A stretch of DNA of 64,000 nt from Diprion similis (lineage: Eukaryota > Arthropoda > Insecta > Hymenoptera > Diprionidae), in contig NC_060113.1 in NCBI RefSeq assembly GCF_021155765.1, forward strand, positions 2,842,501 through 2,906,500. The letters run 5' to 3'. Under the pieces are notes generated by a model. That model was given only the letters and a program-made list of their open reading frames with translations. It had not been told where the DNA came from and did not search any database. Shown piece after piece: positions 1,789 to 37,200 of this stretch (the first letter of the stretch is position 1; the number at the start of each line of letters is the position of its first letter). A program made the position numbers and the translations under genes.

Positions 1789-2362
1789 CTCAGATATATT
1801 TTGAAACTATTAGATCATGATATTACATCTCTGTTTGAACATCCATCGTCAAGTTGCGCGGAAAATAATCCCTTTGTGCTGTCCAATTTGAAATTAAATG
1901 TCTCCCATTCTTTTTTGCATTCAATGGATAAAACCCGTTCTGATCGTTTTTGAAAATCACGCGAATCGAGAGAGATCTTATCTGCCTGAGACAAATTTTG
2001 AGACTTGACCTTATAAACTGAGACATGGTTTTAAGGAACCTCGATGAGAGAAAAGTACCAACCGTTTCGTTCCTAATGCGAACTTCGCGTGTCATTTCGC
2101 ATGAAAATGCTGAGTTATGATACGTTCATCATAATTGAATTTACTGACGACGCAAATACGCCGAATACCAAGAAGACAAAGTAATCGATATGGCCTATAT
2201 ATAATCGGCAGGCACAATTCGTACGCAGTAATACCTGTAACGATACTATACGGGTTAATATATTGGAGGAAACGAAACATATAATGCTCGGAGCCTAAGC
2301 GTATGTGTTTCCAGGTTGAGAAATTGAAAATTGTATATAGAATGTATTATAGTACCTAAAAC

Positions 2363-2475
2363 GATGATAATAGTAATATAAATAGTAATAATAATAATAC
2401 TATTCTTCATAGTAATGATAATAAATGATACGAATAATGATAAGAATAATAATCATGAGAATGATAAGAAAAATG
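2363..2475. repeat. AAT/GATAAT-rich low-complexity tract
   Basis: Imperfect trinucleotide and hexanucleotide repeats of A, T and G (AATAAT, GATAAT) just before the satellite array. Confidence 0.7.
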
Positions 2476-2715
2476 TAATGCGTACGCAAGATGTAAGTTA
2501 TCCTTTCTTGAATCACTTAATAAATAATGACAATATATAAAGGTATCGATTCATTGCCTTGATATTCTGGAACCGGAAGACTGTGGGTAAGTATTTGAGG
2601 GAAAGCGTACATCCTTCCTTTTTCAGTGGCGAAAGGTAGATACAAACCAAAAGAAGTATGCACCTTCTTTAAGAAGAAAATGTTCATCGTGTATCCTCAG
2701 GTTGTGAAAGACCAT

Positions 2716-3397
2716 TATTGGACAGAAGACTTTTCGGCCATCGCAAATCCATGGCTAACCCCTTTGCATTTCCGGTGAAAATTTCAACAACTTTGTAATG
2801 TGCTGCTATTATTTCAGTGGGGCACTATACCTACGTAATTTTTCAAAAAAATCGATAAGGCGCAGTCCCGGAACGCTGTGAGCAACAGATCGATGGTTAC
2901 AGCCGAAGAACGGGATACGTATTTTATCAATTTTTTTGCTGCTGTTCTTTACGTCGTAATTTCTCTGCTGTTGCTCCTACGCTCTTTTTCATGTGTTTGT
3001 TGAGTTCCTGTGGGTCGATTTACTCCGGAAAGGGTTGTGGGGATCGATTCCGATGCGAAAAATTTTCGGCTCCGGAAATGAGGAAAAAACGGAGGCTAAC
3101 CCCTTTGGATTTTTGGCCAGAATTTCGACGACTTTGAAAAGTGCTGCAATTAATTCTTTAGAACACTATTCCGACGTAATTTTGCGAGAGAAATCGATTG
3201 ATCGCAGTCCCAATGCGCTGCGAGCAACACCTGTAAAGTTACAGCCAAAAAACTGCAGATTTTCATCGTCATTTCTCTGCTGCTGGTCCTGGGCTATTTT
3301 TCATGTGTTTTCTGAGTTCCTGGGCGTCGAATTAGTCTAAAAAGCGTCATACGGATCGATTCCCAGAAAAAAGATTTTTCGGCCAAAAAAAATCCAA
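2716..3397 (+). repeat. Diverged left-edge satellite monomers
   Basis: Two monomers recognisable by the landmark GGCTAACCCCTTTG at 2753 and 3094 (AGGCTAACCCCTTTGG). The first is 341 bp and heavily diverged; the second is 304 bp and moderately diverged from the core consensus. Satellite-like sequence begins upstream of the first landmark, near 2716. Divergence that rises toward the edge is expected when unequal exchange homogenises the interior of an array. Confidence 0.9.
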
Positions 3398-6300
3398 GGC
3401 TAACCCCTTTGCATTTTTGGCGAAAATTTCGACGACTTTGAAAAGTGCTGCAATTAATTCTTTAGGGTACTATTCCGACGTGATTTTGCAAGAGGAATCG
3501 ATTAATCGCAGTCCCGATACGCTGCGAGCAACACCTGCAAAGTTACAGCCAAAAAACTGCAGATTTTCATCGTCGTTTCTCTGCTGCTGGTCCTGGGCTA
3601 TTTTTCATGTGTTTTCTGAGTTCCTGGGCGTCGAATTAGTCTAAAAAGCGTCATACGGATCGATTCCCAGACAAAAGATTTTTCGGCCAAAAAAAATCCA
3701 AGGCTAACCCCTTTGCATTTTTGGCGAAAATTTCGACGACGTTGAAAGGTGCTGCAATTAATTCTTTGGGGTACTATTCCGACGTGATTTTGCGAGAGGA
3801 ATCGATTAATCGCAGTCCCGATACGCTGCGAGCAACACCTGCAAAGTTACAGCCGAAAAACTGCAGATTTTCATCGTCATTTCTCTGCTGCTGGTCCTAG
3901 GCTATTTTTCATGTGTTTTCTGAGTTCCTGGGCGTCGAATTAGTCTAAAAAGCGTCATACGGATCGATTCCCAGAAAAAAGATTTTTCGGCCAAAAAAAA
4001 TCCAAGGCTAACCCCTTTGCATTTTTGGCGAAAATTTCGACGACTTTGAAAAGTGCTGCAATTAATTCTTTAGGGTACTATTCCGACGTGATTTTGCGAG
4101 AGGAATCGATTAATCGCAGTCCCAATACGCTGCGAGCAACACCTGCAAAGTTACAGCCGAAAAACTGCAGATTTTCATCGTCGTTTCTCTGCTGCTGGTC
4201 CTAGGCTATTTTTCATGTGTTTTCTGAGTTCCTGGGCGTCGAATTAGTCTAAAAAGCGTCATACGGATCGATTCCCAGACGAAAGATTTTTCGGCCACAA
4301 AAAATCCAAGGCTAACCCCTTTGCATTTTTGGCCAAAATTTCGACGACTTTGAAAAGTGCTGCAATTAATTCTTTAGGGTACTATTCCGACGTGATTTTG
4401 CGAGAGGAATCGATTAATCGCAGTCCCAATACGCTGCGAGCAACACCTGCAAAGTTACAGCCAAAAAACTGCAGATTTTCATCGTCATTTCTCTGCTGCT
4501 GGTCCTAGGCTATTTCTCATGTGTTTTTTGAGTTCCTGGGCGTCGAATTAGTCTAAAAAGCGTCATACGGATCGATTCCCAGACAAAAGATTTTTCGGCC
4601 AAAAAAAATCCAAGGCTAACCCCTTTGCATTTTTGGCGAAAATTTCGACGACTTTGAAAAGTGCTGCAATTATTTCTTTGGGGTACTATTCCGACGTGAT
4701 TTTGCGAGAGGAATCGATTAATCGCAGTCCCGATACGCTGCGAGCAACACCTGCAAAGTTACAGCCGAAAAACTGCAGATTTTCATCGTCATTTCTCTGC
4801 TGCTGGTCCTAGGCTATTTTTCATGTGTTTTCTGAGTTCCTGGGCGTCGAATTAGTCTAAAAAGCGTCATACGGATCGATTCCCAGACGAAAGATTTTTC
4901 GGCCAAAAAAAATCCAAGGCTAACCCCTTTGCATTTTTGGCGAAAATTTCGACGACTTTGAAAAGTGCTGCAATTAATTCTTTAGGGTACTATTCCGACG
5001 TGATTTTGCGAGAGGTATCGATTAATCGCAGTCCCGATACGCTGCGAGCAACACCTGCAAAGTTACAGCCGAAAAACTGCAGATTTTCATCGTCATTTCT
5101 CCGCTGCTGGTCCTAGGCTATTTTTCATGTGTTTTCTGAGTTCCTGGGCGTCGAATTAGTCTAAAAAGCGTCATACGGATCGATTCCCAGACGAAAGATT
5201 TTTCGGCCAAAAAAAATCCAAGGTTAACCCCTTTGCATTTTTGGCGAAAATTTCGACGACTTTGAAAAGTGCTGCAATCAATTCTTTAGGGTACTATTCC
5301 GACGTGATTTTGCGAGAGGAATCGATTAATCGCAGTCCCGATACGCTGCGAGCAACACCTGCAAAGTTACAGCCGAAAAACTGCAGATTTTCATCGTCAT
5401 TTCTCTGCTGCTGGTCCTAGGCTATTGTTCATGTGTTTTCTGAGTTCCTGGGCGTCGAATTAGTCTAAAAAGCGTCATACGGATCGATTCCCAGACAAAA
5501 GATTTTTCTGCCAAAAAAAATCCAAGGCTAACCCCTTTGCATTTTTGGCGAAAATTTCGACGACTTTGAAAAGTGCTGCAATCAATTCTTTAGGGTACTA
5601 TTCCGACGTGATTTTGCGAGAGGAATCGATTAATCGCAGTCCCGATACGCTGCGAGCAACACCTGCAAAGTTACAGCCGAAAAACTGCAGATTTTCATCG
5701 TCATTTCTCTGCTGCTGGTCCTAGGCTATTGTTCATGTGTTTTCTGAGTTCCTGGGCGTCGAATTAGTCTAAAAAGCGTCATACGGATCGATTCCCAGAC
5801 AAAAGATTTTTCTGCCAAAAAAAATCCAAGGCTAACCCCTTTGCATTTTTGGCGAAAATTTCGACGACTTTGAAAAGTGCTGCAATCAATTCTTTAGGGT
5901 ACTATTCCGACGTGATTTTGCGAGAGGAATCGATTAATCGCAGTCCCGATACGCTGCGAGCAACACCTGCAAAGTTACAGCCGAAAAACTGCAGATTTTC
6001 ATCGTCGTTTCTCTGCTGCTGGTCCTAGGCTATTTTTCATGTGTTTTCTGAGTTCCTGGGCGTCGAATTAGTCTAAAAAGCGTCATACGGATCGATTCCC
6101 AGACGAAAGATTTTTCGGCCACAAAAAATCCAAGGCTAACCCCTTTGCATTTTTGGCGAAAATTTCGACGACTTTGAAAAGTGCTGCAATTATTTCTTTG
6201 GGGTACTATTCCGACGTGATTTTGCGAGAGGAATCGATTAATCGCAGTCCTGATACGCTGCGAGCAACACCTGCAAAGTTACAGCCGAAAAACTGCAGAT

Positions 6301-9300
6301 TTTCATCGTCATTTCTCTGCTGCTGGTCCTAGGCTATTTTTCATGTGTTTTCTGAGTTCCTGGGCGTCGAATTAGTCTAAAAAGCGTCATACGGATCGAT
6401 TCCCAGACGAAAGATTTTTCGGCCACAAAAAATCCAAGGCTAACCCCTTTGCATTTTTGGCGAAAATTTCGACGACTTTGAAAAGTGCTGCAATTAATTC
6501 TTTAGGGTACTATTCCGACGTGATTTTGCGAGAGGAATCGATTACTCGCAGTCCCGATACGCTGCGAGCAACACCTGCAAAGTTACAGCCAAAAAACTGC
6601 AGATTTTCATCGTCATTTCTCTGCTGCTGGTCCTAGGCTATTTTTCATGTGTTTTCTGAGTTCCTGGGCGTCGAATTAGTCTAAAAAGCGTCATACGGAT
6701 CGATTCCCAGACAAAAGATTTTTCGGCCAAAAAAAATCCAAGGCTAACCCCTTTGCATTTTTGGCGAAAATTTCGACGACGTTGAAAGGTGCTGCAATTA
6801 ATTCTTTGGGGTACTATTCCGACGTGATTTTGCGAGAGGAATCGATTAATCGCAGTCCCGATACGCTGCGAGCAACACCTGCAAAGTTACAGCCGAAAAA
6901 CTGCAGATTTTCATCGTCATTTCTCTGCTGCTGGTCCTAGGCTATTTTTCATGTGTTTTCTGAGTTCCTGGGCGTCGAATTAGTCTAAAAAGCGTCATAC
7001 GGATCGATTCCCAGAAAAAAGATTTTTCGGCCAAAAAAAATCCAAGGCTAACCCCTTTGCATTTTTGGCGAAAATTTCGACGACTTTGAAAAGTGCTGCA
7101 ATTAATTCTTTAGGGTACTATTCCGACGTGATTTTGCAAGAGGAATCGATTAATCGCAGTCCCGATACGCTGCGAGCAACACCTGCAAAGTTACAGCCAA
7201 AAAACTGCAGATTTTCATCGTCGTTTCTCTGCTGCTGGTCCTGGGCTATTTTTCATGTGTTTTCTGAGTTCCTGGGCGTCGAATTAGTCTAAAAAGCGTC
7301 ATACGGATCGATTCCCAGAAAAAAGATTTTTCGGCCAAAAAAAATCCAAGGCTAACCCCTTTGCATTTTTGGCGAAAATTTCGACGACTTTGAAAAGTGC
7401 TGCAATTAATTCTTTAGGGTACTATTCCGACGTGATTTTGCAAGAGGAATCGATTAATCGCAGTCCCGATACGCTGCGAGCAACACCTGCAAAGTTACAG
7501 CCAAAAAACTGCAGATTTTCATCGTCGTTTCTCTGCTGCTGGTCCTGGGCTATTTTTCATGTGTTTTCTGAGTTCCTGGGCGTCGAATTAGTCTAAAAAG
7601 CGTCATACGGATCGATTCCCAGACAAAAGATTTTTCGGCCAAAAAAAATCCAAGGCTAACCCCTTTGCATTTTTGGCGAAAATTTCGACGACGTTGAAAG
7701 GTGCTGCAATTAATTCTTTGGGGTACTATTCCGACGTGATTTTGCGAGAGGAATCGATTAATCGCAGTCCCGATACGCTGCGAGCAACACCTGCAAAGTT
7801 ACAGCCGAAAAACTGCAGATTTTCATCGTCATTTCTCTGCTGCTGGTCCTAGGCTATTTTTCATGTGTTTTCTGAGTTCCTGGGCGTCGAATTAGTCTAA
7901 AAAGCGTCATACGGATCGATTCCCAGAAAAAAGATTTTTCGGCCAAAAAAAATCCAAGGCTAACCCCTTTGCATTTTTGGCGAAAATTTCGACGACTTTG
8001 AAAAGTGCTGCAATTAATTCTTTAGGGTACTATTCCGACGTGATTTTGCGAGAGGAATCGATTATTCGCAGTCCCGATACGCTGCGAGCAACACCTGCAA
8101 AGTTACAGCCGAAAAACTGCAGATTTTCATCGTCATTTCTCTGCTGCTGGTCCTAGGCTATTTTTCATGTGTTTTCTGAGTTCCTGGGCGTCGAATTAGT
8201 CTAAAAAGCGTCATACGGATCGATTCCCAGACAAAAGATTTTTCGGCCAAAAAAAATCCAAGGCTAACCCCTTTGCATTTTTGGCGAAAATTTCGACGAC
8301 TTTGAAAAGTGCTGCAATTAATTTTTTAGGGTACTATTCCGACGTGATTTTGCGAGAGGTATCGATTAATCGCAGTCCCGATACGCTGCGAGCAACACCT
8401 GCAAAGTTACAGCCAAAAAACTGCAGATTTTCATCGTCATTTCTCTGCTGCTGGTCCTAGGCTATTTTTCATGTGTTTTCTGAGTTCCTGGGCGTCGAAT
8501 TAGTCTAAAAAGCGTCATACGGATCGATTCCCAGACGAAAGATTTTTCGGCCACAAAAAATCCAAGGCTAACCCCTTTGCATTTTTGGCGAAAATTTCGA
8601 CGACTTTGAAAAGTGCTGCAATTAATTCTTTAGGGTACTATTCCGACGTGATTTTGCGAGAGGAATCGATTAATCGCAGTCCCGATACGCTGCGAGCAAC
8701 ACCTGCAAAGTTACAGCCGAAAAACTGCAGATTTTCATCGTCATTTCTCCGCTGCTGGTCCTAGGCTATTTTTCATGTGTTTTCTGAGTTCCTGGGCGTC
8801 GAATTAGTCTAAAAAGCGTCATACGGATCGATTCCCAGACGAAAGATTTTTCGGCCAAAAAAAATCCAAGGTTAACCCCTTTGCATTTTTGGCGAAAATT
8901 TCGACGACTTTGAAAAGTGCTGCAATCAATTCTTTAGGGTACTATTCCGACGTGATTTTGCGAGAGGAATCGATTAATCGCAGTCCCGATACGCTGCGAG
9001 CAACACCTGCAAAGTTACAGCCGAAAAACTGCAGATTTTCATCGTCATTTCTCTGCTGCTGGTCCTAGGCTATTTTTCATGTGTTTTCTGAGTTCCTGGG
9101 CGTCGAATTAGTCTAAAAAGCGTCATACGGATCGATTCCTAGACGAAAGATTTTTCGGCCAAAAAAAATCCAAGGCTAACCCCTTTGCATTTTTGGCGAA
9201 AATTTCGACGACTTTGAGAAGTGCTGCAATCAATTCTTTAGGGTACTATTCCGACGTGATTTTGCGAGAGGAATCGATTAATCGCAGTCCCGATACGCTG

Positions 9301-12300
9301 CGAGCAACACCTGCAAAGTTACAGCCGAAAAACTGCAGATTTTCATCGTCATTTCTCTGCTGCTGGTCCTAGGCTATTTTTCATGTGTTTTCTGAGTTCC
9401 TGGGCGTCGAATTAGTCTAAAAAGCGTCATACGGATCGATTCCCAGACGAAAGATTTTTCGGCCACAAAAAATCCAAGGCTAACCCCTTTGCATTTTTGG
9501 CGAAAATTTCGACGACTTTGAAAAGTGCTTCAATTAATTCTTTAGGGTACTATTCCGACGTGATTTTGCGAGTGGAATCGATTAATCGCAGTCCCAATAC
9601 GCTGCGAGCAACACCTGCAAAGTTACAGCCAAAAAACTGCAGATTTTCATCGTCATTTCTCTGCTGCTGGTCCTAGGCTATTTTTCATGTGTTTTCTGAG
9701 TTCCTGGGCGTCGAATTAGTCTAAAAAGCGTCATACGGATCGATTCCCAGACGAAAGATTTTTCGGCCAAAAAAAATCCAAGGCTAACCCCTTTGCATTT
9801 TTGGCGAAAATTTCGACGACTTTGAAAAGTGCTGCAATTAATTCTTTAGGGTACTATTCCGACGTGATTTTGCGAGAGGAATCGATTAATCGCAGTCCCG
9901 ATACGCTGCGAGCAACACCTGCAAAGTTACAGCCGAAAAACTGCAGATTTTCATCGTCATTTCTCTGCTGCTGGTCCTAGGCTATTTTTCATGTGTTTTC
10001 TGAGTTCCTGGGCGTCGAATTAGTCTAAAAAGCGTCATGCGGATCGATTCCCAGACGAAAGATTTTTCGGCCAAAAAAAATCCAAGGCTAACCCCTTTGC
10101 ATTTTTGGCGAAAATTTCGACGACTTTGAAAAGTGCTTCAATTAATTCTTTAGGGTACTATTCCGACGTGATTTTGCGAGAGGAATCGATTAATCGCAGT
10201 CCCGATACGCTGCGAGCAACACCCGCAAAGTTACAGCCAAAAAACTGCAGATTTTCATCGTCATTTCTCTGCTGCTGGTCCTAGGCTATTTTTCATGTGT
10301 TTTCTGAGTTCCTGGGCGTCGAATTAGTCTAAAAAGCGTCATACGGATCGATTCCCAGACAAAAGATTTTTCGGCCAAAAAAAATCCATGACTAACCCCT
10401 TTGCATTTTTGGCGAAAATTTCGACGACTTTGAAAAGTGCTGCAATTAATTCTTTAGGGTACTATTCCGACGTGATTTTGCGAGTGGAATCGATTAATCG
10501 CAGTCCCGATACGCTGCGAGCAACACCTGCAAAGTTACAGCCAAAAAACTGCAGATTTTCATCGTCATTTCTCTGCTGCTGGTCCTAGGCTATTTTTCAT
10601 GTGTTTTCTGAGTTCCTGGGCGTCGAATTAGTCTAAAAAGCGTCATACGGATCGATTCCCAGACGAAAGATTTTTCGGCCAAAAAAAATCCAAGGCTAAC
10701 CCCTTTGCATTTTTGGCGAAAATTTCGACGACTTTGAAAAGTGCTGCAATTAATTCTTTAGGGTACTATTCCGACGTGATTTTGCGAGAGGAATCGATTA
10801 ATCGCAGTCCCGATACGCTGCGAGCAACACCTGCAAAGTTACAGCCGAAAAACTGCAGATTTTCATCGTCATTTCTCTGCTGCTGGTCCTAGGCTATTTT
10901 TCATGTGTTTTCTGAGTTCCTGGGCGTCGAATTAGTCTAAAAAGCGTCATACGGATCGATTCCCAGACGAAAGATTTTTCGGCCAAAAAAAATCCAAGGC
11001 TAACCCCTTTGCATTTTTGGCGAAAATTTCGACGACTTTGAAAAGTGCTTCAATTAATTCTTTAGGGTACTATTCCGACGTGATTTTGCGAGAGGAATCG
11101 ATTAATCGCAGTCCCGATACGCTGCGAGCAACACCCGCAAAGTTACAGCCAAAAAACTGCAGATTTTCATCGTCATTTCTCTGCTGCTGGTCCTAGGCTA
11201 TTTTTCATGTGTTTTCTGAGTTCCTGGGCGTCGAATTAGTCTAAAAAGCGTCATACGGATCGATTCCCAGACAAAAGATTTTTCGGCCAAAAAAAATCCA
11301 TGACTAACCCCTTTGCATTTTTGGCGAAAATTTCGACGACTTTGAAAAGTGCTGCAATTAATTCTTTAGGGTACTATTCCGACGTGATTTTGCGAGTGGA
11401 ATCGATTAATCGCAGTCCCGATACGCTGCGAGCAACACCTGCAAAGTTACAGCCAAAAAACTGCAGATTTTCATCGTCATTTCTCTGCTGCTGGTCCTAG
11501 GCTATTTTTCATGTGTTTTCTGAGTTCCTGGGCGTCGAATTAGTCTAGAAAGCGTCATACGGATCGATTCCCAGACGAAAGATTTTTCGGCCAAAAAAAA
11601 TCCAAGGTTAACCCCTTTGCATTTTTGGCGAAAATTTCGACGACTTTGAAAAGTGCTGCAATCAATTCTTTAGGGTACTATTCCGACGTGATTTTGCGAG
11701 AGGAATCGATTAATCGCAGTCCCGATACGCTGCGAGCAACACCTGCAAAGTTACAGCCGAAAAACTGCAGATTTTCATCGTCATTTCTCTGCTGCTGGTC
11801 CTAGGCTATTTTTCATGTGTTTTCTGAGTTCCTGGGCGTCAAATTAGTCTAAAAAGCGTCATACGGATCGATTCCCAGACGAAAGATTTTTCGGCCAAAA
11901 AAAATCCAAGGCTAACCCCTTTGCATTTTTGGCGAAAATTTCGACGACTTTGAAAAGTGCTGCAATCAATTCTTTAGGGTACTATTCCGACGTGATTTTG
12001 CGAGAGGAATCGATTAATCGCAGTCCCGATACGCTGCGAGCAACACCTGCAAAGTTACAGCCGAAAAACTGCAGATTTTCATCGTCATTTCTCTGCTGCT
12101 GGTCCTAGGCTATTTTTCATGTGTTTTCTGAGTTCCTGGGCGTCGAATCAGTCTCAAAAGCGTCATACGGATCGATTCCCAGACGAAAGATTTTTCGGCC
12201 ACAAAAAATCCAAGGCTAACCCCTTTGCATTTTTGGCGAAAATTTCGACGACTTTGAAAAGTGCTGCAATTAATTCTTTAGGGTACTATTCCGACGTGAT

Positions 12301-15300
12301 TTTGCGAGAGGAATCGATTAATCGCAGTCCCGATACGCTGCGAGCAACACCTGCAAAGTTACAGCCGAAAAACTGCAGATTTTCATCGTCATTTCTCTGC
12401 TGCTGGTCCTAGGCTATTTTTCATGTGTTTTCTGAGTTCCTGGGCGTCGAATTAGTCTAAAAAGCGTCATACGGATCGATTCCCAGACGAAAGATTTTTC
12501 GGCCACAAAAAATCCAAGGCTAACCCCTTTGCATTTTTGGCGAAAATTTCGACGACTTTGAAAAGTGCTGCAATTAATTCTTTAGGGTACTTTTCCGACG
12601 TGATTTTGCGAGAGGAATCGATTAATCGCAGTCCCGATACGCTGCGAGCAACACCTGCAAAGTTACAGCCGAAAAACTGCAGATTTTCATCGTCATTTCT
12701 CTGCTGCTGGTCCTAGGCTATTTTTCATGTGTTTTCTGAGTTCCTGGGCGTCGAATTAGTCTAAAAAGCGTCATACGGATCGATTCCCAGACGAAAGATT
12801 TTTCGGCCAAAAAAAATCCAAGGCTAACCCCTTTGCATTTTTGGCGAAAATTTCGACGACTTTGAAAAGTGCTGCAATTAATTCTTTAGGGTACTATTCC
12901 GACGTGATTTTGCGAGAGGTATCGATTAATCGCAGTCCCGATACGCTGCGAGCAACACCTGCAAAGTTACAGCCAAAAAACTGCAGATTTTCATCGTCAT
13001 TTCTCTGCTGCTGGTCCTAGGCTATTTTTCATGTGTTTTCTGAGTTCCTGGGCGTCGAATTAGTCTAAAAAGCGTCATACGGATCGATTCCCAGACGAAA
13101 GATTTTTCGGCCACAAAAAATCCAAGGCTAACCCCTTTGCATTTTTGGCGAAAATTTCGACGACTTTGAAAAGTGCTGCAATTAATTCTTTAGGGTACTA
13201 TTCCGACGTGATTTTGCGAGAGGAATCGATTAATCGCAGTCCCGATACGCTGCGAGCAACACCTGCAAAGTTACAGCCGAAAAACTGCAGATTTTCATCG
13301 TCATTTCTCCGCTGCTGGTCCTAGGCTATTTTTCATGTGTTTTCTGAGTTCCTGGGCGTCGAATTAGTCTAAAAAGCGTCATACGGATCGATTCCCAGAC
13401 AAAAGATTTTTCGGCCAAAAAAAATCCAAGGCTAACCCCTTTGCATTTTTGGCGAAAATTTCGACGACTTTGAAAAGTGCTGCAATTAATTCTTTAGGGT
13501 ACTATTCCGACGTGATTTTGCAAGAGGAATCGATTAATCGCAGTCCCGATACGCTGCGAGCAACACCTGCAAAGTTACAGCCAAAAAACTGCAGATTTTC
13601 ATCGTCGTTTCTCTGCTGCTGGTCCTGGGCTATTTTTCATGTGTTTTCTGAGTTCCTGGGCGTCGAATTAGTCTAAAAAGCGTCATACGGATCGATTCCC
13701 AGACAAAAGATTTTTCGGCCAAAAAAAATCCAAGGCTAACCCCTTTGCATTTTTGGCGAAAATTTCGACGACGTTGAAAGGTGCTGCAATTAATTCTTTG
13801 GGGTACTATTCCGACGTGATTTTGCGAGAGGAATCGATTAATCGCAGTCCCGATACGCTGCGAGCAACACCTGCAAAGTTACAGCCGAAAAACTGCAGAT
13901 TTTCATCGTCATTTCTCTGCTGCTGGTCCTAGGCTATTTTTCATGTGTTTTCTGAGTTCCTGGGCGTCGAATTAGTCTAAAAAGCGTCATACGGATCGAT
14001 TCCCAGACAAAAGATTTTTCGGCCAAAAAAAATCCATGACTAACCCCTTTGCATTTTTGGCGAAAATTTCGACGACTTTGAAAAGTGCTGCAATTAATTC
14101 TTTAGGGTACTATTCCGACGTGATTTTGCGAGTGGAATCGATTAATCGCAGTCCCGATACGCTGCGAGCAACACCTGCAAAGTTACAGCCAAAAAACTGC
14201 AGATTTTCATCGTCATTTCTCTGCTGCTGGTCCTAGGCTATTTTTCATGTGTTTTCTGAGTTCCTGGGCGTCGAATCAGTCTAAAAAGCGTCATACGGAT
14301 CGATTCCCAGACGAAAGATTTTTCGGCCAAAAAAAATCCAAGGCTAACCCCTTTGCATTTTTGGCGAAAATTTCGACGACTTTGAAAAGTGCTGCAATTA
14401 ATTCTTTAGGGTACTATTCCGACGTGATTTTGCGAGAGGAATCGATTAATCGCAGTCCCGATACGCTGCGAGCAACACCTGCAAAGTTACAGCCGAAAAA
14501 CTGCAGATTTTCATCGTCATTTCTCTGCTGCTGGTCCTAGGCTATTTTTCATGTGTTTTCTGAGTTCCTGGGCGTCGAATTAGTCTAGAAAGCGTCATAC
14601 GGATCGATTCCCAGACGAAAGATTTTTCGGCCAAAAAAAATCCAAGGTTAACCCCTTTGCATTTTTGGCGAAAATTTCGACGACTTTGAAAAGTGCTGCA
14701 ATCAATTCTTTAGGGTACTATTCCGACGTGATTTTGCGAGAGGAATCGATTAATCGCAGTCCCGATACGCTGCGAGCAACACCTGCAAAGTTACAGCCGA
14801 AAAACTGCAGATTTTCATCGTCATTTCTCTGCTGCTGGTCCTAGGCTATTTTTCATGTGTTTTCTGAGTTCCTGGGCGTCGAATCAGTCTCAAAAGCGTC
14901 ATACGGATCGATTCCCAGACGAAAGATTTTTCGGCCACAAAAAATCCAAGGCTAACCCCTTTGCATTTTTGGCGAAAATTTCGACGACTTTGAAAAGTGC
15001 TGCAATTAATTCTTTAGGGTACTATTCCGACGTGATTTTGCGAGAGGAATCGATTAATCGCAGTCCCGATACGCTGCGAGCAACACCTGCAAAGTTACAG
15101 CCGAAAAACTGCAGATTTTCATCGTCATTTCTCTGCTGCTGGTCCTAGGCTATTTTTCATGTGTTTTCTGAGTTCCTGGGCGTCGAATTAGTCTAAAAAG
15201 CGTCATACGGATCGATTCCCAGACGAAAGATTTTTCGGCCAAAAAAAATCCAAGGCTAACCCCTTTGCATTTTTGGCGAAAATTTCGACGACTTTGAAAA

Positions 15301-18300
15301 GTGCTGCAATCAATTCTTTAGGTTACTATTCCGACGTGATTTTGCGAGAGGAATCGATCAATCGCAGTCCCGATACGCTGCGAGCAACACCTGCAAAGTT
15401 ACAGCCGAAAAACTGCAGATTTTCATCGTCATTTCTCTGCTGCTGGTCCTAGGCTATTTTTCATGTGTTTTCTGAGTTCCTGGGCGTCGAATTAGTCCAA
15501 AAAGCGTCATACGGATCGATTCCCAGACGAAAGATTTTTCGGCCAAAAAAAATCCAAGGCTAACCCCTTTGCATTTTTGGCGAAAATTTCGACGACTTTG
15601 AAAAGTGCTTCAATTAATTCTTTAGGGTACTATTCCGACGTGATTTTGCGAGAGGAATCGATTAATCGCAGTCCCGATACGCTGCGAGCAACACCTGCAA
15701 AGTGACAGCCAAAAAACTGCAGATTTTCATCGTCATTTCTCTGCTGCTGGTCCTAGGCTATTTTTCATGTGTTTTCTGAGTTCCTGGGCGTCGAATTAGT
15801 CTAAAAAGCGTCATACGGATCGATTCCCAGACGAAAGATTTTTCGGCCACAAAAAATCCAAGGCTAACCCCTTTGCATTTTTGGCGAAAATTTCGACGAC
15901 TTTGAAAAGTGCTGCAATTAATTCTTTAGGGTACTTTTCCGACGTGATTTTGCGAGAGGAATCGATTAATCGCAGTCCCGATACGCTGCGAGCAACACCT
16001 GCAAAGTTACAGCCGAAAAACTGCAGATTTTCATCGTCATTTCTCTGCTGCTGGTCCTAGGCTATTTTTCATGTGTTTTCTGAGTTCCTGGGCGTCGAAT
16101 TAGTCTAAAAAGCGTCATACGGATCGATTCCCAGACGAAAGATTTTTCGGCCAAAAAAAATCCAAGGCTAACCCCTTTGCATTTTTGGCGAAAATTTCGA
16201 CGACTTTGAAAAGTGCTGCAATTAATTCTTTAGGGTACTATTCCGACGTGATTTTGCGAGAGGTATCGATTAATCGCAGTCCCGATACGCTGCGAGCAAC
16301 ACCTGCAAAGTTACAGCCGAAAAACTGCAGATTTTCATCGTCATTTCTCTGCTGCTGGTCCTAGGCTATTTTTCATGTGTTTTCTGAGTTCCTGGGCGTC
16401 GAATTAGTCTAAAAAGCGTCATACGGATCGATTCCCAGACGAAAGATTTTTCGGCCACAAAAAATCCAAGGCTAACCCCTTTGCATTTTTGGCGAAAATT
16501 TCGACGACTTTGAAAAGTGCTGCAATTAATTCTTTAGGGTACTATTCCGACGTGATTTTGCGAGAGGAATCGATTAATCGCAGTCCCGATACGCTGCGAG
16601 CAACACCTGCAAAGTTACAGCCGAAAAACTGCAGATTTTCATCGTCATTTCTCCGCTGCTGGTCCTAGGCTATTTTTCATGTGTTTTCTGAGTTCCTGGG
16701 CGTCGAATTAGTCTAAAAAGCGTCATACGGATCGATTCCCAGACAAAAGATTTTTCGGCCAAAAAAAATCCAAGGCTAACCCCTTTGCATTTTTGCCGAA
16801 AATTTCGACGACTTTGAAAAGTGCTGCGATTAATTCTTTAGGGTACTATTCCGACGTGATTTTGCGAGAGGAATCGATTAATCGCAGTCCCGATACGCTG
16901 CGAGCAACACCTGGAAAGTTACAGCCAAAAAACTGCAGATTTTCATCGTCATTTCTCTGCTGCTGGTCCTGGGCTATTTTTCATGTGTTTTCTGAGTTCC
17001 TGGGCGTCGAATTAGTCTCAAAAGCGTCATACGGATCGATTCCCAGACAAAAGATTTTTCGGCCAAAAAAAATCCAAGGCTAACCCCTTTGCATTTTTGG
17101 CGAAAATTTCGACGACGTTGAAAGGTGCTGCAATTAATTCTTTGGGGTACTATTCCGACGTGATTTTGCGAGAGGAATCGATTAATCGCAGTCCCGATAC
17201 GCTGCGAGCAACACCTGCAAAGTTACAGCCAAAAAACTGCAGATTTTCATCGTCATTTCTCTGCTGCTGGTCCTGGGCTATTTTTCATGTGTTTTCTGAG
17301 TTCCTGGGCGTCGAATTAGTCTAAAAAGCGTCATACGGATCGATTCCCAGACAAAAGATTTTTCGGCCAAAAAAAATCCAAGGCTAACCCCTTTGCATTT
17401 TTGGCGAAAATTTCGACGACTTTGAAAAGTGCTGCAATTAATTCTTTAGGGTACTATTCCGACGTGATTTTGCAAGAGGAATCGATTAATCGCAGTCCCG
17501 ATACGCTGCGAGCAACACCTGCAAAGTTACAGCCAAAAAACTGCAGATTTTCATCGTCGTTTCTCTGCTGCTGGTCCTGGGCTATTTTTCATGTGTTTTC
17601 TGAGTTCCTGGGCGTCGAATTAGTCTAAAAAGCGTCATACGGATCGATTCCCAGACAAAAGATTTTTCGGCCAAAAAAAATCCAAGGCTAACCCCTTTGC
17701 ATTTTTGGCGAAAATTTCGACGACGTTGAAAGGTGCTGCAATTAATTCTTTGGGGTACTATTCCGACGTGATTTTGCGAGAGGAATCGATTAATCGCAGT
17801 CCCGATACGCTGCGAGCAACACCTGCAAAGTTACAGCCGAAAAACTGCAGATTTTCATCGTCATTTCTCTGCTGCTGGTCCTAGGCTATTTTTCATGTGT
17901 TTTCTGAGTTCCTGGGCGTCGAATTAGTCTAAAAAGCGTCATACGGATCGATTCCCAGAAAAAAGATTTTTCGGCCAAAAAAAATCCAAGGCTAACCCCT
18001 TTGCATTTTTGGCGAAAATTTCGACGACTTTGAAAAGTGCTGCAATTAATTCTTTAGGGTACTATTCCGACGTGATTTTGCGAGAGGAATCGATTAATCG
18101 CAGTCCCAATACGCTGCGAGCAACACCTGCAAAGTTACAGCCGAAAAACTGCAGATTTTCATCGTCGTTTCTCTGCTGCTGGTCCTAGGCTATTTTTCAT
18201 GTGTTTTCTGAGTTCCTGGGCGTCGAATTAGTCTAAAAAGCGTCATACGGATCGATTCCCAGACGAAAGATTTTTCGGCCACAAAAAATCCAAGGCTAAC

Positions 18301-21300
18301 CCCTTTGCATTTTTGGCCAAAATTTCGACGACTTTGAAAAGTGCTGCAATTAATTCTTTAGGGTACTATTCCGACGTGATTTTGCGAGAGGAATCGATTA
18401 ATCGCAGTCCCAATACGCTGCGAGCAACACCTGCAAAGTTACAGCCAAAAAACTGCAGATTTTCATCGTCATTTCTCTGCTGCTGGTCCTAGGCTATTTC
18501 TCATGTGTTTTTTGAGTTCCTGGGCGTCGAATTAGTCTAAAAAGCGTCATACGGATCGATTCCCAGACAAAAGATTCTTCGGCCAAAAAAAATCCAAGGC
18601 TAACCCCTTTGCATTTTTGGCGAAAATTTCGACGACTTTGAAAAGTGCTGCAATTATTTCTTTGGGGTACTATTCCGACGTGATTTTGCGAGAGAAATCG
18701 ATTAATCGCAGTCCCGATACGCTGCGAGCAACACCTGCAAAGTTACAGCCGAAAAACTGCAGATTTTCATCGTCATTTCTCTGCTGCTGGTCCTAGGCTA
18801 TTTTTCATGTGTTTTCTGAGTTCCTGGGCGTCGAATTAGTCTAAAAAGCGTCATACGGATCGATTCCCAGACGAAAGATTTTTCGGCCAAAAAAAATCCA
18901 AGGCTAACCCCTTTGCATTTTTGGCGAAAATTTCGACGACTTTGAAAAGTGCTGCAATTAATTCTTTAGGGTACTATTCCGACGTGATTTTGCGAGAGGT
19001 ATCGATTAATCGCAGTCCCGATACGCTGCGAGCAACACCTGCAAAGTTACAGCCAAAAAACTGCAGATTTTCATCGTCATTTCTCTGCTGCTGGTCCTAG
19101 GCTATTTTTCATGTGTTTTCTGAGTTCCTGGGCGTCGAATTAGTCTAAAAAGCGTCATACGGATCGATTCCCAGACGAAAGATTTTTCGGCCACGAAAAA
19201 TCCAAGGCTAACCCCTTTGCATTTTTGGCGAAAATTTCGACGACTTTGAAAAGTGCTGCAATTAATTCTTTAGGGTACTATTCCGACGTGATTTTGCGAG
19301 AGGAATCGATCAATCGCAGTCCCGATACGCTGCGAGCAACACCTGCAAAGTTACAGCCGAAAAACTGCAGATTTTCATCGTCATTTCTCCGCTGCTGGTC
19401 CTAGGCTATTTTTCATGTGTTTTCTGAGTTCCTGGGCGTCGAATTAGTCTAAAAAGCGTCATACGGATCGATTCCCAGACAAAAGATTTTTCTGCCAAAA
19501 AAAATCCAAGGCTAACCCCTTTGCATTTTTGGCGAAAATTTCGACGACTTTGAAAAGTGCTGCAATCAATTCTTTAGGGTACTATTCCGACGTGATTTTG
19601 CGAGAGGAATCGATTAATCGCAGTCCCGATACGCTGCGAGCAACACCTGCAAAGTTACAGCCGAAAAACTGCAGATTTTCATCGTCGTTTCTCTGCTGCT
19701 GGTCCTAGGCTATTTTTCATGTGTTTTCTGAGTTCCTGGGCGTCGAATTAGTCTAAAAAGCGTCATACGGATCGATTCCCAGACGAAAGATTTTTCGGCC
19801 ACAAAAAATCCAAGGCTAACCCCTTTGCATTTTTGGCGAAAATTTCGACGACTTTGAAAAGTGCTGCAATTATTCCTTTGGGGTACTATTCCGACGTGAT
19901 TTTGCGAGAGGAATCGATTAATCGCAGTCCTGATACGCTGCGAGCAACACCTGCAAAGTTACAGCCGAAAAACTGCAGATTTTCATCGTCATTTCTCTGC
20001 TGCTGGTCCTAGGCTATTTTTCATGTGTTTTCTGAGTTCCTGGGCGTCGAATTAGTCTAAAAAGCGTCATACGGATCGATTCCCAGACGAAAGATTTTTC
20101 GGCCAAAAAAAATCCAAGGCTAACCCCTTTGCATTTTTGGCGAAAATTTCGACGACTTTGAAAAGTGCTGCAACTAATTCTTCAGGGTACTATTCCGACG
20201 TGATTTTGCGAGAGGAATCGATTAATCGCAGTCCCGATACGCTGCGAGCAACACCTGCAAAGTTACAGCCGAAAAACTGCAGATTTTCATCGTCATTTCT
20301 CTGCTGCTGGTCCTAGGCTATTTTTCATGTGTTTTCTGAGTTCCTGGGCGTCGAATTAGTCTAAAAAGCGTCATACGGATCGATTCCCAGACAAAAGATT
20401 TTTCGGCCAAAAAAAATCCAAGGCTAACCCCTTTGCATTTTTGGCGAAAATTTCGACGACTTTGAAAAGTGCTGCAATTAATTTTTTAGGGTACTATTCC
20501 GACGTGATTTTGCGAGAGGTATCGATTAATCGCAGTCCCGATACGCTGCGAGCAACACCTGCAAAGTTACAGCCAAAAAACTGCAGATTTTCATCGTCAT
20601 TTCTCTGCTGCTGGTCCTAGGCTATTTTTCATGTGTTTTCTGAGTTCCTGGGCGTCGAATTAGTCTAAAAAGCGTCATACGGATCGATTCCCAGACGAAA
20701 GATTTTTCGGCCACAAAAAATCCAAGGCTAACCCCTTTGCATTTTTGGCGAAAATTTCGACGACTTTGAAAAGTGCTGCAATTAATTCTTTAGGGTACTA
20801 TTCCGACGTGATTTTGCGAGAGGAATCGATTAATCGCAGTCCCGATACGCTGCGAGCAACACCTGCAAAGTTACAGCCGAAAAACTGCAGATTTTCATCG
20901 TCATTTCTCTGCTGCTGGTCCTAGGCTATTTTTCATGTGTTTTCTGAGTTCCTGGGCGTCGAATTAGTCTAAAAAGCGTCATACGGATCGATTCCCAGAC
21001 AAAAGATTTTTCGGCCAAAAAAAATCCAAGGCTAACCCCTTTGCATTTTTGGCGAAAATTTCGACGACTTTGAAAAGTGCTGCAATTAATTCTTTAGGGT
21101 ACTATTCCGACGTGATTTTGCGAGAGGAATCGATTAATCGCAGTCCCGATACGCTGCGAGCAACACCTGCAAAGTTACAGCCGAAAAACTGCAGATTTTC
21201 ATCGTCATTTCTCTGCTGCTGGTCCTAGGCTATTTTTCATGTGTTTTCTGAGTTCCTGGGCGTCGAATTAGTCTAAAAAGCGTCATACGGATCGATTCCC

Positions 21301-21637
21301 AGACAAAAGATTTTTCGGCCAAAAAAAATCCAAGGCTAACCCCTTTGCATTTTTGGCGAAAATTTCGACGACTTTGAAAAGTGCTGCAAATAATTCTTTA
21401 GGGTACTATTCCGACGTGATTTTGCGAGAGGAATCGATTAATCGCAGTCCCGATACGCTGCGAGCAACACCTGCAAAGTTACAGCCGAAAAACTGCAGAT
21501 TTTCATCGTCATTTCTCTGCTGCTGGTCCTAGGCTATTTTTCATGTGTTTTCTGAGTTCCTGGGCGTCGAATTAGTCTAAAAAGCGTCATAATAATCGAT
21601 TCCCAGACAAAAGATTTTCCGGCCAAAAAAAATCCAA
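3398..21637 (+). repeat. 304-bp satellite array, 60 in-register monomers
   Basis: A tandem head-to-tail satellite. The landmark AAGGCTAACCCCTTTGCA recurs at 3398 + 304k; I checked many positions (for example 7046, 9782, 18598, 21638), and 60 steps give exactly 18,240 bp, so there is no net insertion or deletion. Monomers differ by a few substitutions only. Each normally contains CTGCAG, two ATCGAT sites and the perfect palindrome CGATTAATCG. Shared variants define higher-order blocks. Short open frames of 66-97 codons in some monomers are not genes: 304 is not a multiple of 3, most copies carry an in-frame TAG in TCCTAGG, and no domain is visible. It is probably heterochromatic or centromeric satellite DNA, but the location is inference. 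Confidence 0.98.
10086..11605 (+). repeat. Trimeric higher-order repeat block in satellite
   Basis: Monomers starting 10086 and 10390 share diagnostic variants with those starting 10998 and 11302: GCTTCAATTAATTC plus ACACCCGCAAAG in the first of each pair, CCATGACTAACC plus GCGAGTGGAATCG in the second. The spacing is 912 bp, or three monomers. The second type appears again at 14038, nine monomers further on. This shows that multi-monomer blocks, not just single units, were duplicated. Confidence 0.8.
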
Positions 21638-22112
21638 GGCTAACCCCTTTGCATTTTTGGTGAAAATTTCGACGACTTTGAAAAGTGCTGCAATTAATTT
21701 TGTAGGACACTATTCCGACGTAATTTTGCGAGAGGAATCGATCAAGCGCATTCCAAATACGCTGCGAGCACCACCTGCGAAGTTACAGGCGAAAAACTGC
21801 TTATTTTCGTCCTTATCTCTCTGCTGTTGGTCCTACGCTCTTTTTCATGTGTTTTTCGAGTTCCTGGGGGTCGATTCACTCCGGAAAGTTTCGTACAAAT
21901 CGATCCAGAGACGGAAAATTTTCGGCTCTGGAAATGAGAAAACAACTATGGCCAACCCCTTTGGATTTTCAGCGAAAATTTTGACGATCCTGAAAAGTGC
22001 TGCTTCAAAATCTCTAGGCTATATTATGACGTAATTCTGCGAGAAAAAACGATTGAGCGCAGTTTGAATGCGCTGCGAGCAACGGATCGAAAGTTACAGC
22101 CAAAAACGAATG
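21638..22112 (+). repeat. Diverged right-edge satellite monomers
   Basis: One 313-bp monomer starting at 21638 and a partial one starting near 21951 (landmark GGCCAACCCCTTTGG) diverge progressively from the core. Similarity fades after about 22112. Some variants, such as TTTGGATTTT and CTCCGGAAAG, are shared with the left-edge monomers rather than the core, so they look like an older form of the repeat. Confidence 0.88.
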
Positions 22113-22431
22113 CCGTATTTTTTCAATAATTCGGTGCTTCATCCTCATTGAAAGTACATTCTTGCTACTTTGTTCTATGGTTCTTGTGCTTGAGCCAATT
22201 TTTTCACACCCTCTCATCGCACATTGTAAAAATATTTTTGGCTATAATATGAAATTTCATGAAAGTTATTGAAAATCCATTGCTAGATTAAACCGACGTC
22301 GCATCAACTGGAATTGAATTGAAATTTTACGAGCAACTAATTTTCGTTCAACGTGCGGTGGAAATTTCCGTGAAAACGTAACAATCGTCATTATAGTCTG
22401 GAATGTGACTCGGTTTTCTTTAGTTCTCACG

Positions 22432-22790
22432 TATCATCGCCTTTTGTAAGGGAATCAGTGGATAAATCACGAGATGATATTCGAACAGCAATTTGTAAAA
22501 GATAACGTATTGAGACAATAATCAACGGATCTCGTTGAAAAAAAAGTACCAACAGCTGATTCTTCATCCCAACTTCGCATTATGCGCGTCGTAATTTCGC
22601 GTGAAAATGGTGAATTATAATGATGCGATCATTACAATCGAATTTATTCACGACTCAAAACGCCGAATACCAAGAAGACGAAGTAATCGATCTAGCCTAT
22701 ATATTATGTAATCAGCAGATACGATTCATACGTATTAATACCTGTAACGATACTTCACGGAGTTAATATGTTAGAGGAAACGAAACAGGT
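22432..22790 (+). repeat. Right copy of satellite-flanking direct repeat
   Basis: 22432-22512 resembles 643-722 and 22527-22790 resembles 2034-2280, in the same order and direct orientation. Key shared words are AAAAAGTACCAAC-like sequence, GCCGAATACCAAGAAGAC, AATACCTGTAACGATACT and GAGGAAACGAAACA. Because both copies lie outside the array, the satellite is bracketed by direct repeats. No coding potential is seen. Confidence 0.75.
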
Positions 22791-23824
22791 CATGAATATA
22801 GGTATAATGTTCTGTTAGTTAAAACTTGATGTAAATTTAAGAATATTTTTTTATTGAAAATATTTTGTATATTTAGATGTATAGGTACATAAAATGTGTA
22901 TAAATTTTTGTGTTGCTCCATCAATAAAAAAAAAGAAAATAATAATAATTACTTGTATACATCTATCGTAATGAATTATCGTACACATAGTGTAACGATG
23001 TATAACAGTAAAATTATTATTACGGTGACGGGGGAGAAAGAAAAGAGCCTCGCACTAATGAAAAAGGAACAAACCGCAGAACTCACAGCTGTATACACAA
23101 GAAGCAGATAAAGTATAATAATAAATATATCATTATATTGTTTAGTCGAGATTTACGTATCTAGGACGAAAAGAAAGGCAATGAAACAAAAGCATATTTA
23201 GAATTGAAAAGTCTCCAAACAAGGAGAAGAAACAATTTTCTCAAAACAACCATATTACATTATTATCCACTCAACAATGTTATGTCTATCCATATACATA
23301 TATTGTGAAAAATTTTTATCGCCTTGCATTTCAAGCATCATATTATACGTTTTAGCTTTGCACGTAAACTACAGTTTTTCATGATCCAATTTTATTATCT
23401 ACTTTAAATACTTTTCATAACTTTTACACAAGTTATTGGCGAGCAGTTGTTTTCATTACGACGCCAATTGACGAGACGATTCGTCCAACGTAACCGAGGA
23501 CGTCGAACCAGCCGGCGAAAGTAGGTTTTGTACATCGTTTTACCCATAATACGTGTTATTTGTTCGGATTTTCTCGTTTTATTTAATTTTCTTCTCTTGA
23601 ATTTGTTTGTGGTTTTCCTTTCTTTCCTCGTTTTTCAAATGCTTTTCTCGAACTTGACAAGACGAACTCCGACCAATCCTCCCTCGCACGCCGCGTGCAG
23701 AAGAAGAGTTATACAGTGCAAATTACCAACGAAATTGAATTGAAATTGGTTTTTGAATGTTACACAGAATGTTCGATCTCCACGCGGTATTTTCTTCGAT
23801 CGATTTACATTTTTTGAGTTATAT
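22791..23824. other. 3' flank of first tetraspanin gene
   Basis: AT-rich, no gene recognised. It should contain the 3' untranslated region of the minus-strand tetraspanin that stops at 23825-23827. Confidence 0.5.
23578..23583 (-). terminator. Candidate polyadenylation signal, first tetraspanin
   Basis: AATAAA on the minus strand, about 240 nt past the stop codon of the first tetraspanin. It is the right motif in the right place, but this hexamer is common in AT-rich DNA. Confidence 0.4.
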
Positions 23825-34294: not shown

Positions 34295-37200
34295 CTACAT
34301 CTTTCGTCTTGGCGGTACTCGGGGCTTGACCACCAGCTGAGACGATGACTCCACCCCTGTACCGGAGGCATTTTGCATCCCCAGTGCATTCTGGGAGTTT
34401 CTAACCTCGCTTAGCGACAGGATTTCTCGCCGTCTTCTGGCAGCGCCCTTCTTTATCGCTCGAGCGAAGAAACATGCGGATATCACTCCGCACACCTTTG
34501 GAAGAAAGGGCAAAAACATGTATTAAGTTTTATTGAGCGGTTAAAATTCCAGATTTTTATTACAAAAGGTGGACTATTTTCTTAAATATTTTTTCCTTTC
34601 ACTTTTCAAAATACGAAACAATACCCGGTGAATTATACAATTTTAATTTTTACATTCATTTCTCAAATGTTTTTATAGTGCAGGATCGGTTTGAGGAATA
34701 GTTGAAAATTTCAAAAATTCTATCTGCTTCACACGGCGACAGGCATCAAACATTTCGGAAAAACTGCAAATTCCTTAGAGTCTTAATAATTTCTTTGAGA
34801 ACAACAAGACACCGTGTATTATTGTGCGATTGTTTTCATTGTTATACAAACGTTCGTGTTTACTAAAGAAATACGCAAACGATGTTCTTACTTTCTTTGC
34901 AGTTTTTCAGCAATTTCAAAATCTTTGATTCACGACTGACGCTACAGGAAAATCCTGAGGCTCAAACAAGTGGTTTCGCAGCGCCTGAATAATCGCAACC
35001 CAACAATCACGCATTATGAAGTAACAATTTCTCGGCCGGTAAATGAAACACTTTTTTTTTCAAATGAAATTTGCAGATAAGAAATCGCCAACCGCGAAGC
35101 TTCGCCAAAAATTTTAATTTTCAACACTGTGAAAGAGTGATCAGAAATTTTCCGGCCCGTTGAACGTAAGCCCTCAATATTCGAAATCGGTGGAATTTCT
35201 AATTATCAATGATCGAACGTTCACCATCCAAATCCACTGACAATGAATTCCATTTCCATCCTATAAATACCCCTAAGTTCCGAGCGAACAATGACCGAAT
35301 AATTATTTGGGTAAACTTTCTATTTTCACCGTCATTAACTCTCACCTGAATGAGAACGGAGCAAAGTGCAAGTAGAAAAACGTGGAGGAGAATAGAACGC
35401 GTTCGGTTAACAACCAAGTGTAAGCATCCTCTGGAATACATGGTGGTACAAGTGCCACCGGCAACGGTTTCTGGATTTTCCACCAAGGATGTGTCGCAGC
35501 AGGACCAAGGAACGGAGTCCAGGATCCTGTAGTCGGCGGGTCCATCGATGCCGCAACAGCGCAGCTGTGCAAAAATACGAAATAGATTAACCCAAGAAAT
35601 CTCCAGATTACGCTTTAAACCCCAATGCGAGTGCGCAAAATTATCTAACGAAAAATTTTTTACTGCTGCAATCGTCTCATGGACTGAACCTGATCCTACA
35701 AGCAGTTGTTTTATCAACGATCTTAATCAAGTCCTCGTGAAAAATTTTATACCCCCTGTCATAGTAACATCAGATAATATCGAAGATTGCTTGCGGAAGT
35801 GAAATATTATGCTCTGAACGATAAAAATCGGCGATCTTTTGTCCGTCGGATACCCGATAACTTACCCTTATTTGCATTCGATCCCAGGTGGATTTGTCGT
35901 CGGTTGCAGCAAGGGCGAAGGCCGTCTCGTGATCGGAAGTACGCAGAGGATCAATCTGTTCGTGTTTAATCACAGCCCATATTCCGGTGCCGGCTTCTAT
36001 GAAGGCGACCATGCCCAAAACCGTGGCAAACTTAAAGATCAAATAAGAAATTAGATTGCAATCGCTCGAGACGTGACTCACGATTCTAATTACACTCGTG
36101 CTGATGCCGCTGATAGTGTGAGCGATAAGCAAGCTGATCAGATTCACCAATGGTCTTTGAACGTGCTTTAAAACCATCGTCGTATAATCGATGAAGTCAG
36201 CGATGGACGCTCTGCTTTGCCTTCAAATTATGAGCTCAATGTCTTCGTTAAGGTTGCGAATCCTCGTCGAAGTTTCGATTCAAATCAAAACGAAGACAGG
36301 CGAACGAAATATTTTCATTAAAACCAGTTATGCCTCACTGTGCGACAAGTATTCATTGATACTCCACGTTTTTACTACGCGAAATGTAAATGTGGTCATA
36401 TTTTAACCGAGCTCAATATGATATTTGCATAGTTGAAATTTTGCGCGGTGTTAACATATATTGAATAACGACAATGTTTAATCTAAGGTAAGTTTATCGG
36501 TCATTGACCCTGTCGCGTTTATTGACATTATTTGGTTGAGCCTGTTTGGTCCTAAGTTCTAAGATTAGCAAAAAGTAAATTCTAGTGTGCAACCCTTTGG
36601 CAATTAGTTTCAGTCATCGAGAAATTCACAATTTGTTCCGTCGATTTATTGTTTTGGAAAACAAAAGAGTCAATAATTGGGTCTAAACGTATCAGTAACT
36701 GGTCCTACACTTGCCTTAATTGATTGCTTTCTATTTTCATGAAGTCTGATTAGATCGATGTTTTTTTCTTAAGATAACAGCTCAACACCTAATTCTACAT
36801 GCCAGACGTACATCTTATCGACGAGTTGTGGTGCCATTAATTTCTTTTGTTTTAATTCGTTCTCGCCCGACGCTTTTTGCGGAATTCCCACCGGATACAC
36901 GATTAGGCTCCGTAGATCGGTATCCAAGATATCGTTATCACAGTTGTATAAACAATCGGAGAGTGAGTCACAAGCAATATTTACAGAAAATTGCTCAACG
37001 AGTCGCACCCATTCGAAATTGGCAGCTATATACTTCCGCGTATTATCTTTTCTGCAAAGGAGTTGAATCATCGACGCTCGATCAAGGCCGACGGATTCTT
37101 TTTTTTTACGGCAATTAAAAGAGGTTTATTTCTATTTTTTCCATTATCCGAGACGCAGTGTCTTCTCAAAGTCGAAGCAGTGCAAAAGTTGTTCGAGTCT

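Follow-up and report, generated by a model that had tools for sequence, protein, structure and literature searches.

A 304-bp satellite array in perfect register in Diprion similis, and a preferred insertion site of two retrotransposon families in the same satellite

The satellite array and its surroundings

The window analyzed here is a 64,000-nt stretch of Diprion similis DNA (C9:2842501-2906500 of a 269-Mb genome in 60 contigs); array coordinates below are window positions, and the array and its flanking features are all given on the + strand. At 3398..21637 lies a satellite array of 60 monomers of 304 bp, with no indels by Tandem Repeats Finder and monomer alignment. It is degenerate at both edges: on the left (2721..3397), the monomer at 3094 matches the consensus at 94.7% and an outer one is more diverged, with indels; on the right (21638..22130), divergence grows outwards, again with indels, and the outer limit is approximate (22130-22140). 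A segment of the left flank (2033..2286) is directly repeated to the right of the array (22524..22794), at 76% identity. Every 304 bp the array presents a box known from other arrays as a retrotransposon target, the first (GGCTAACCCC) at 3398..3407 and the last of the regular array at 21334..21343. In the window array 53 of the 60 monomers have the exact box sequence, and none of the boxes in this array has a retrotransposon insertion or a footprint. No Rfam family reaches its gathering threshold in window positions 1-24500, which cover the array and its surroundings.

The array lies in a gene-bearing region, as two of nine scanned ORFs, both exon-like and on the - strand, have a tetraspanin domain (35199-35726) and a PAN domain (45710-46396). 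The latter is overlapped by a 63-bp tandem repeat of two copies with 91% matches (46156-46289).

The initial annotation had placed landmarks at 3398 + 304k over 60 steps, with no net change in length, and both observations are borne out. Cut at these positions, all 60 monomers are in register and head-to-tail, with between 0 and 7 substitutions each relative to the consensus. Tandem Repeats Finder reports a single array (2954-21874; period 304, 62.2 copies, 97% matches, 0% indels), and no compensating indels appeared when the 60 monomers were aligned. Identity at a lag of 304 is 0.981, and at 300-303 and 305-308 it is 0.32 or less; a half-monomer (dimer) structure is excluded by an identity of 0.286 at a lag of 152. 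The monomers carry 56 distinct substitutions, 23 of them singletons, with a mean pairwise difference of 6.0/304. Some blocks have been copied within the array: monomers 0-4 match monomers 46-50 with at most one difference each. A higher-order repeat was considered and rejected, the order of variants being non-periodic apart from such block copies.

A register this regular could conceivably be made by the assembly itself, through collapsed or templated repeats. We consider this very improbable: the window monomers differ from one another by 6/304 on average and in non-periodic order, the array edges decay normally, and indels of 1-8 bp are present in other arrays of the same assembly.

The satellite across the genome

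A 24-mer from the monomer occurs 7,712 times genome-wide, which implies at least about 2.3 Mb of satellite, or near 1% of the genome. The sequence has two usual properties of satellite DNA, namely head-to-tail arrays of similar monomers, and high copy number with arrays at many loci. For comparison with the window array, 200 kb were fetched around known copies on four further contigs, giving eight more arrays and a sample of nine in all. The 304-bp register is common to these other arrays and not special to the one in the window: all eight are built on it, and a single consensus is common to all arrays sampled. Alignment to this consensus yielded 572 pieces, of which 536 cover the full monomer; 534 of these were retained (two with >15 substitutions, one of these with three indels, were dropped); the 36 non-spanning pieces, mostly clipped by end mismatches or by the ends of the fetched regions, were left out of the variant count. 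Among the 534 monomers there are 290 distinct substitution variants, and four distinct within-monomer indels, all of one base, found in seven monomers.

Mean differences per 304 bp range from 2.9 to 6.4 within arrays and from 3.8 to 7.6 between them (excluding C1z, an array of six monomers). The nearest neighbor of a monomer is in the same array for 77% of them, and nine of 301 haplotypes are shared between arrays. The pattern resembles that of ordinary concerted evolution, accompanied by some exchange between chromosomes. A flanking element carrying the arrays from place to place was also considered, and rejected: the available flanks of different arrays share only satellite-like sequence and the retrotransposon insert described below.

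An older subfamily, with a spacing of ~312 bp and about 83% like the consensus, is found beside one array and around one element. The respective stretches are at about 8430 to 9960 of L009 (C1:2.928-2.930 Mb) and 268-2124 of L074, and have 83-86% identity to the 304-bp consensus. Several of the 312-bp monomers are crossed by an open frame of 449 residues (L074 positions 2-1348); 312, unlike 304, is a multiple of three, and the frame is probably due to chance.

Retrotransposon insertions at a single bond

Beyond the within-monomer indels, the register shifts inside the sampled arrays at five places and in four ways, all of them at the CTAACCCC box that starts the monomer: by -6 twice and +8 once in C7, by +1 in C11, and by a 270-bp element insert in C5. 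Five further shifts are at degenerate edges or in older monomers (one in C1a, one at the C7 edge, three in C1z). On C1, one element, here called family A, interrupts two arrays at an identical monomer position, with different 5' truncation points; the C5 insert belongs to a second family, B.

The genome was then searched with the 3' end of each family. Family A gave 30 matches, 27 of them at 81% identity or more, and 23 of these 27 (11 + 12) abut the satellite at one common bond, all in the same orientation; outside that bond are L029, L036, L041, and L042, as well as three 69% matches (L045-L047). For family B there were 29 matches, two of which stop short of the 3' end and were dropped; 24 of the remaining 27 (10 + 14) join the satellite at the same bond, with L057, L060, and L064 away from it. 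For the two families together, 47 of 54 copies share both bond and orientation (47 of 59 if every dropped match is counted), so that most copies are at one bond of one repeat, as in site-specific non-LTR elements. Copies within 100 kb of each other were grouped by hand, giving about 39 satellite loci on 14 contigs; finding 39 of 46 loci (the latter also a hand count) in satellite would have a probability of about 3e-32 even if satellite made up one tenth of the genome.

The three 69% matches (L045, C10:1571531; L046, C7:239340; L047, C1:17999714) represent a third related element, with this identity in the 3' end. Their 3' flanks are non-satellite and similar at all three places, perhaps as part of a duplicated segment.

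The 3' flanks of the 26 copies with fetched satellite flank are 83-99.5% like the consensus, indicating that old and young monomers have both been hit. All nine family A copies examined have different 5' ends, which suggests that the insertions are largely independent. A few may have been multiplied along with the satellite around them: family A has four possible local duplicates at C9:2.44-2.47 Mb and two more, similar in their 3' flanks, at C1:7.80 Mb, and family B has three at C11:8.94 Mb. As an account of the distribution as a whole, however, amplification of element-bearing monomers is scarcely credible, given the hand-counted loci more than 100 kb apart, the nine 5' ends, two families just 44-46% identical to each other, and flanks drawn from different satellite subfamilies.

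At the located 5' junctions (nine of family A, three of family B), the satellite ends within CTAACCC in 11 of 12 cases and two bases before it in the other; in three other B copies (L069, L070, and L072) the junction was not located. These positions are compatible with a stagger of at most about seven bases. Both families thus insert preferentially at the 8-bp stretch GG|CTAACCC|C. The retrotransposons explain changes in length elsewhere in the satellite; they do not explain the regularity of the window array, since it has neither insertion nor footprint.

Small insertions and deletions at the target box

Smaller changes at the target box were searched for genome-wide by the spacing of TCCAAGG and TTTGCATTT, as pattern matches that may include non-satellite sequence. 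The two motifs are closer than normal at 43 places, and 1-8 bases farther apart at 26; about two or three in each list may be there by chance, judging from reversed-pattern controls (2 and 3 matches). Sorting the places by locus and allele leaves 22 deletion and 14 insertion events. As the insertion in one C7 monomer duplicates the left anchor, that monomer is listed twice, and the separate events number 35. Two control boxes searched with anchors of the same lengths had one and three deletions, the three at a single locus, while intact forms of the target box and the two control boxes in the nine-array sample number 520, 520, and 538.

The indels at the box are larger than those at the poly-A tract of the monomer, and they are at the bond where the elements insert. 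They are probably footprints of endonuclease cutting, a reading suggested by position and size. The main alternative is that the elements merely prefer a box that is unstable on its own account, by being slippage-prone, G-rich, or a recombination junction. The box does have a CCCC run adjoining TTT, and its one-base events (seven of the 22 deletions; one insertion, of an extra T) may be slippage; the poly-A8 tract, searched with longer anchors, likewise often loses bases, with 48 deletion places (about 11 loci by eye) to the 43 at the box. All but two of these 48 are -1, however, and the two are -2, while 15 of the 22 box deletion events lose 3-7 bases, the insertions include clean CTAA and AAC duplications, and the two control boxes are nearly deletion-free. 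On balance we think an origin without the retrotransposons unlikely, although it keeps appreciable weight, and favor cutting by their endonucleases.

Maintenance of monomer length

Of the causes initially proposed for the perfect register, recent amplification and homogenization are supported by the common consensus, the block copies, and the prevalence of same-array neighbors; strict selection on length does not fare as well. Selection for 304 bp, for example through nucleosome or protein spacing, would account for several observations: four distinct within-monomer indels against 290 distinct substitutions, a length common to arrays on five contigs, and an indel share that is low in comparison with an old non-satellite repeat pair in the flanks (4:290 vs. 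8:35, p about 1e-5). When young retrotransposon copies serve as the reference, with homopolymers excluded and totals tallied by eye, the shortfall of indels does not reach significance (3:290 vs. 2:38, p 0.11).

Monomers of other lengths have, moreover, themselves been amplified. At C13:1.39 Mb, seven monomers carry a 4-bp CTAA duplication at the target box, placing neighbors 308 bp apart; a poly-A tract one base shorter, making 303-bp monomers, is found in 22 monomers at C13:3.64-3.67 Mb (3.636-3.666) and in nine at C10:7.12-7.15 Mb (7.119-7.149); and the older subfamily, ~8 bp longer, was amplified as well. Strict selection for 304 bp is therefore not supported, and we regard length selection in general as improbable. 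The initial suggestion of nucleosome spacing finds no support: the strongest AA/TT/AT/TA periods of the consensus are 11.7 and 16 bp, there is no clear 10-bp period (power is moderate at 9.8-10.1), and there is no 152-bp half. The monomers with the CTAA duplication (L048, C13:1392660-1397575) have a repeated spacing of 1220/308/916, and so form a higher-order repeat.

Most likely, then, the 304-bp length is kept here by recent copies that have been evened out among themselves. The structure of the window array and the sharing of variants are plain from the alignments; the process and the age are what these suggest. Its monomers would be young, amplified block by block, and homogenized through recombination, and the register would have been kept because few indels have occurred since they arose.

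Element anatomy and proposed mechanism

One family A copy spanning both reading frames (L074) starts at C12:9216148 and ends near 9220577, for a length of about 4.4 kb, of which the first half was read. ORF1 begins with a cysteine/histidine-rich stretch and includes Baculo_FP domains 1 and 2 (Pfam; L074 positions 2151-3242). ORF2 has an APE-type endonuclease at its start (Exo_endo_phos, E 1.3e-11). Family B is represented by an 880-residue open stretch that includes the last part of an endonuclease together with a reverse transcriptase; in this partial frame the only endonuclease match is Exo_endo_phos_2, just below its cut-off, with E 1e-5. The reverse transcriptase domain RVT_1 is found in both (E 4.1e-40 for A, scanned on the C1 and C14 copies, and 2.4e-40 for B), and the A and B proteins are 44-46% identical. 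A reverse transcriptase domain, an apurinic-type endonuclease domain, and 5' truncation with short target duplications are together characteristic of APE-type non-LTR retrotransposons; the tandem 3' tails and cysteine-rich ORF1 hint at the CR1 group as a possible placement. The target duplications are between 0 and about 7 bases long, a range made less sharp because the tail can pair with CTAA. The 3' tails, (TAAAC)n and (ATCTAA)n, lead directly into CTAA|CCCC in both families, making pairing with the target end possible.

Judging from these junctions, target-primed reverse transcription is the likely mechanism. The endonuclease would nick the lower strand within GGGGTTAG or just beside it; the TTAG end released in this way could then pair with CUAA in the tandem 3' tail of the element and serve as primer for the copy; and a second cut, no more than about seven bases off, would generate the short target duplications. 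Cuts that were aborted or repaired may have left the small deletions and duplications gathered at the box. That a young, evened-out satellite, a preferred site of the two families within it, target-primed insertion, and footprints of cutting jointly explain the observations is, in our judgment, probable.

Implications

More speculatively, two diverged families may have settled in the satellite by way of a telomere-like GTTAG box, with their cuts as the chief source of its larger length changes; the breaks could in turn promote the recombination through which the satellite is multiplied and homogenized, so that satellite and elements amplify each other. We offer this tentatively, as the less likely extension of the results above. 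Thousands of equal target sites do provide a natural tally of how often a single bond is cut, repaired, and used for insertion. They offer a way to test if breaks made by retrotransposons drive the turnover of the satellite, and if a recognition core is common to telomere- and satellite-targeting endonucleases.

Comparison with known systems

A literature search of partial coverage found no report of this satellite or of an APE-type element specific to a satellite of this kind. The R1 and R2 elements of rDNA resemble families A and B in having a multicopy tandem target, insertion at one bond, and 5'-truncated copies. The target of A and B is a satellite, however, and not an RNA gene (R2: PMC5035012).

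The nearest case reported in these sources is a U2-derived satellite that is hit occasionally, by YURE of the Utopia/YURE elements (PMC4640811). These too are site-specific non-LTR elements, but they group with the restriction-like-endonuclease lineages and target U2 genes (PMC4640811), while A and B are APE-type. The satellite specificity of A and B is also strong where that of YURE is occasional, and no Rfam family was found at threshold around the window array.

The dispersed satellites of Crassostrea gigas likewise form arrays spread along many chromosomes (PMC10048060). In D. similis, the larger sampled arrays contain tens of monomers and serve as insertion sites for the elements instead of being carried by them, unlike those described for C. 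gigas (PMC10048060).

Families A and B also resemble the TRAS and SART elements, in endonuclease-directed insertion at a single position of a tandem repeat. The target of A and B is a 304-bp satellite inside chromosomes and not (TTAGG)n. TTAGG repeats are present at the start of contig C1, but no two adjacent TTAGG units were found in the 3' flanks (about 195 bases) of the seven non-satellite A and B copies and the three distant matches, so that the telomeric location typical of TRAS and SART is not seen in the fetched flanks. In SART1, the RNA 3' region has been proposed to pair with the target end (PMC7265360); its tail is poly(A), in contrast to the (TAAAC)n and (ATCTAA)n of A and B. A further likeness is to telomere-specific TRAS1, for which GTTAG is reported to be essential for lower-strand cleavage (PMC7265360): the lower strand of the satellite box, GGGGTTAGCC, contains the same GTTAG.
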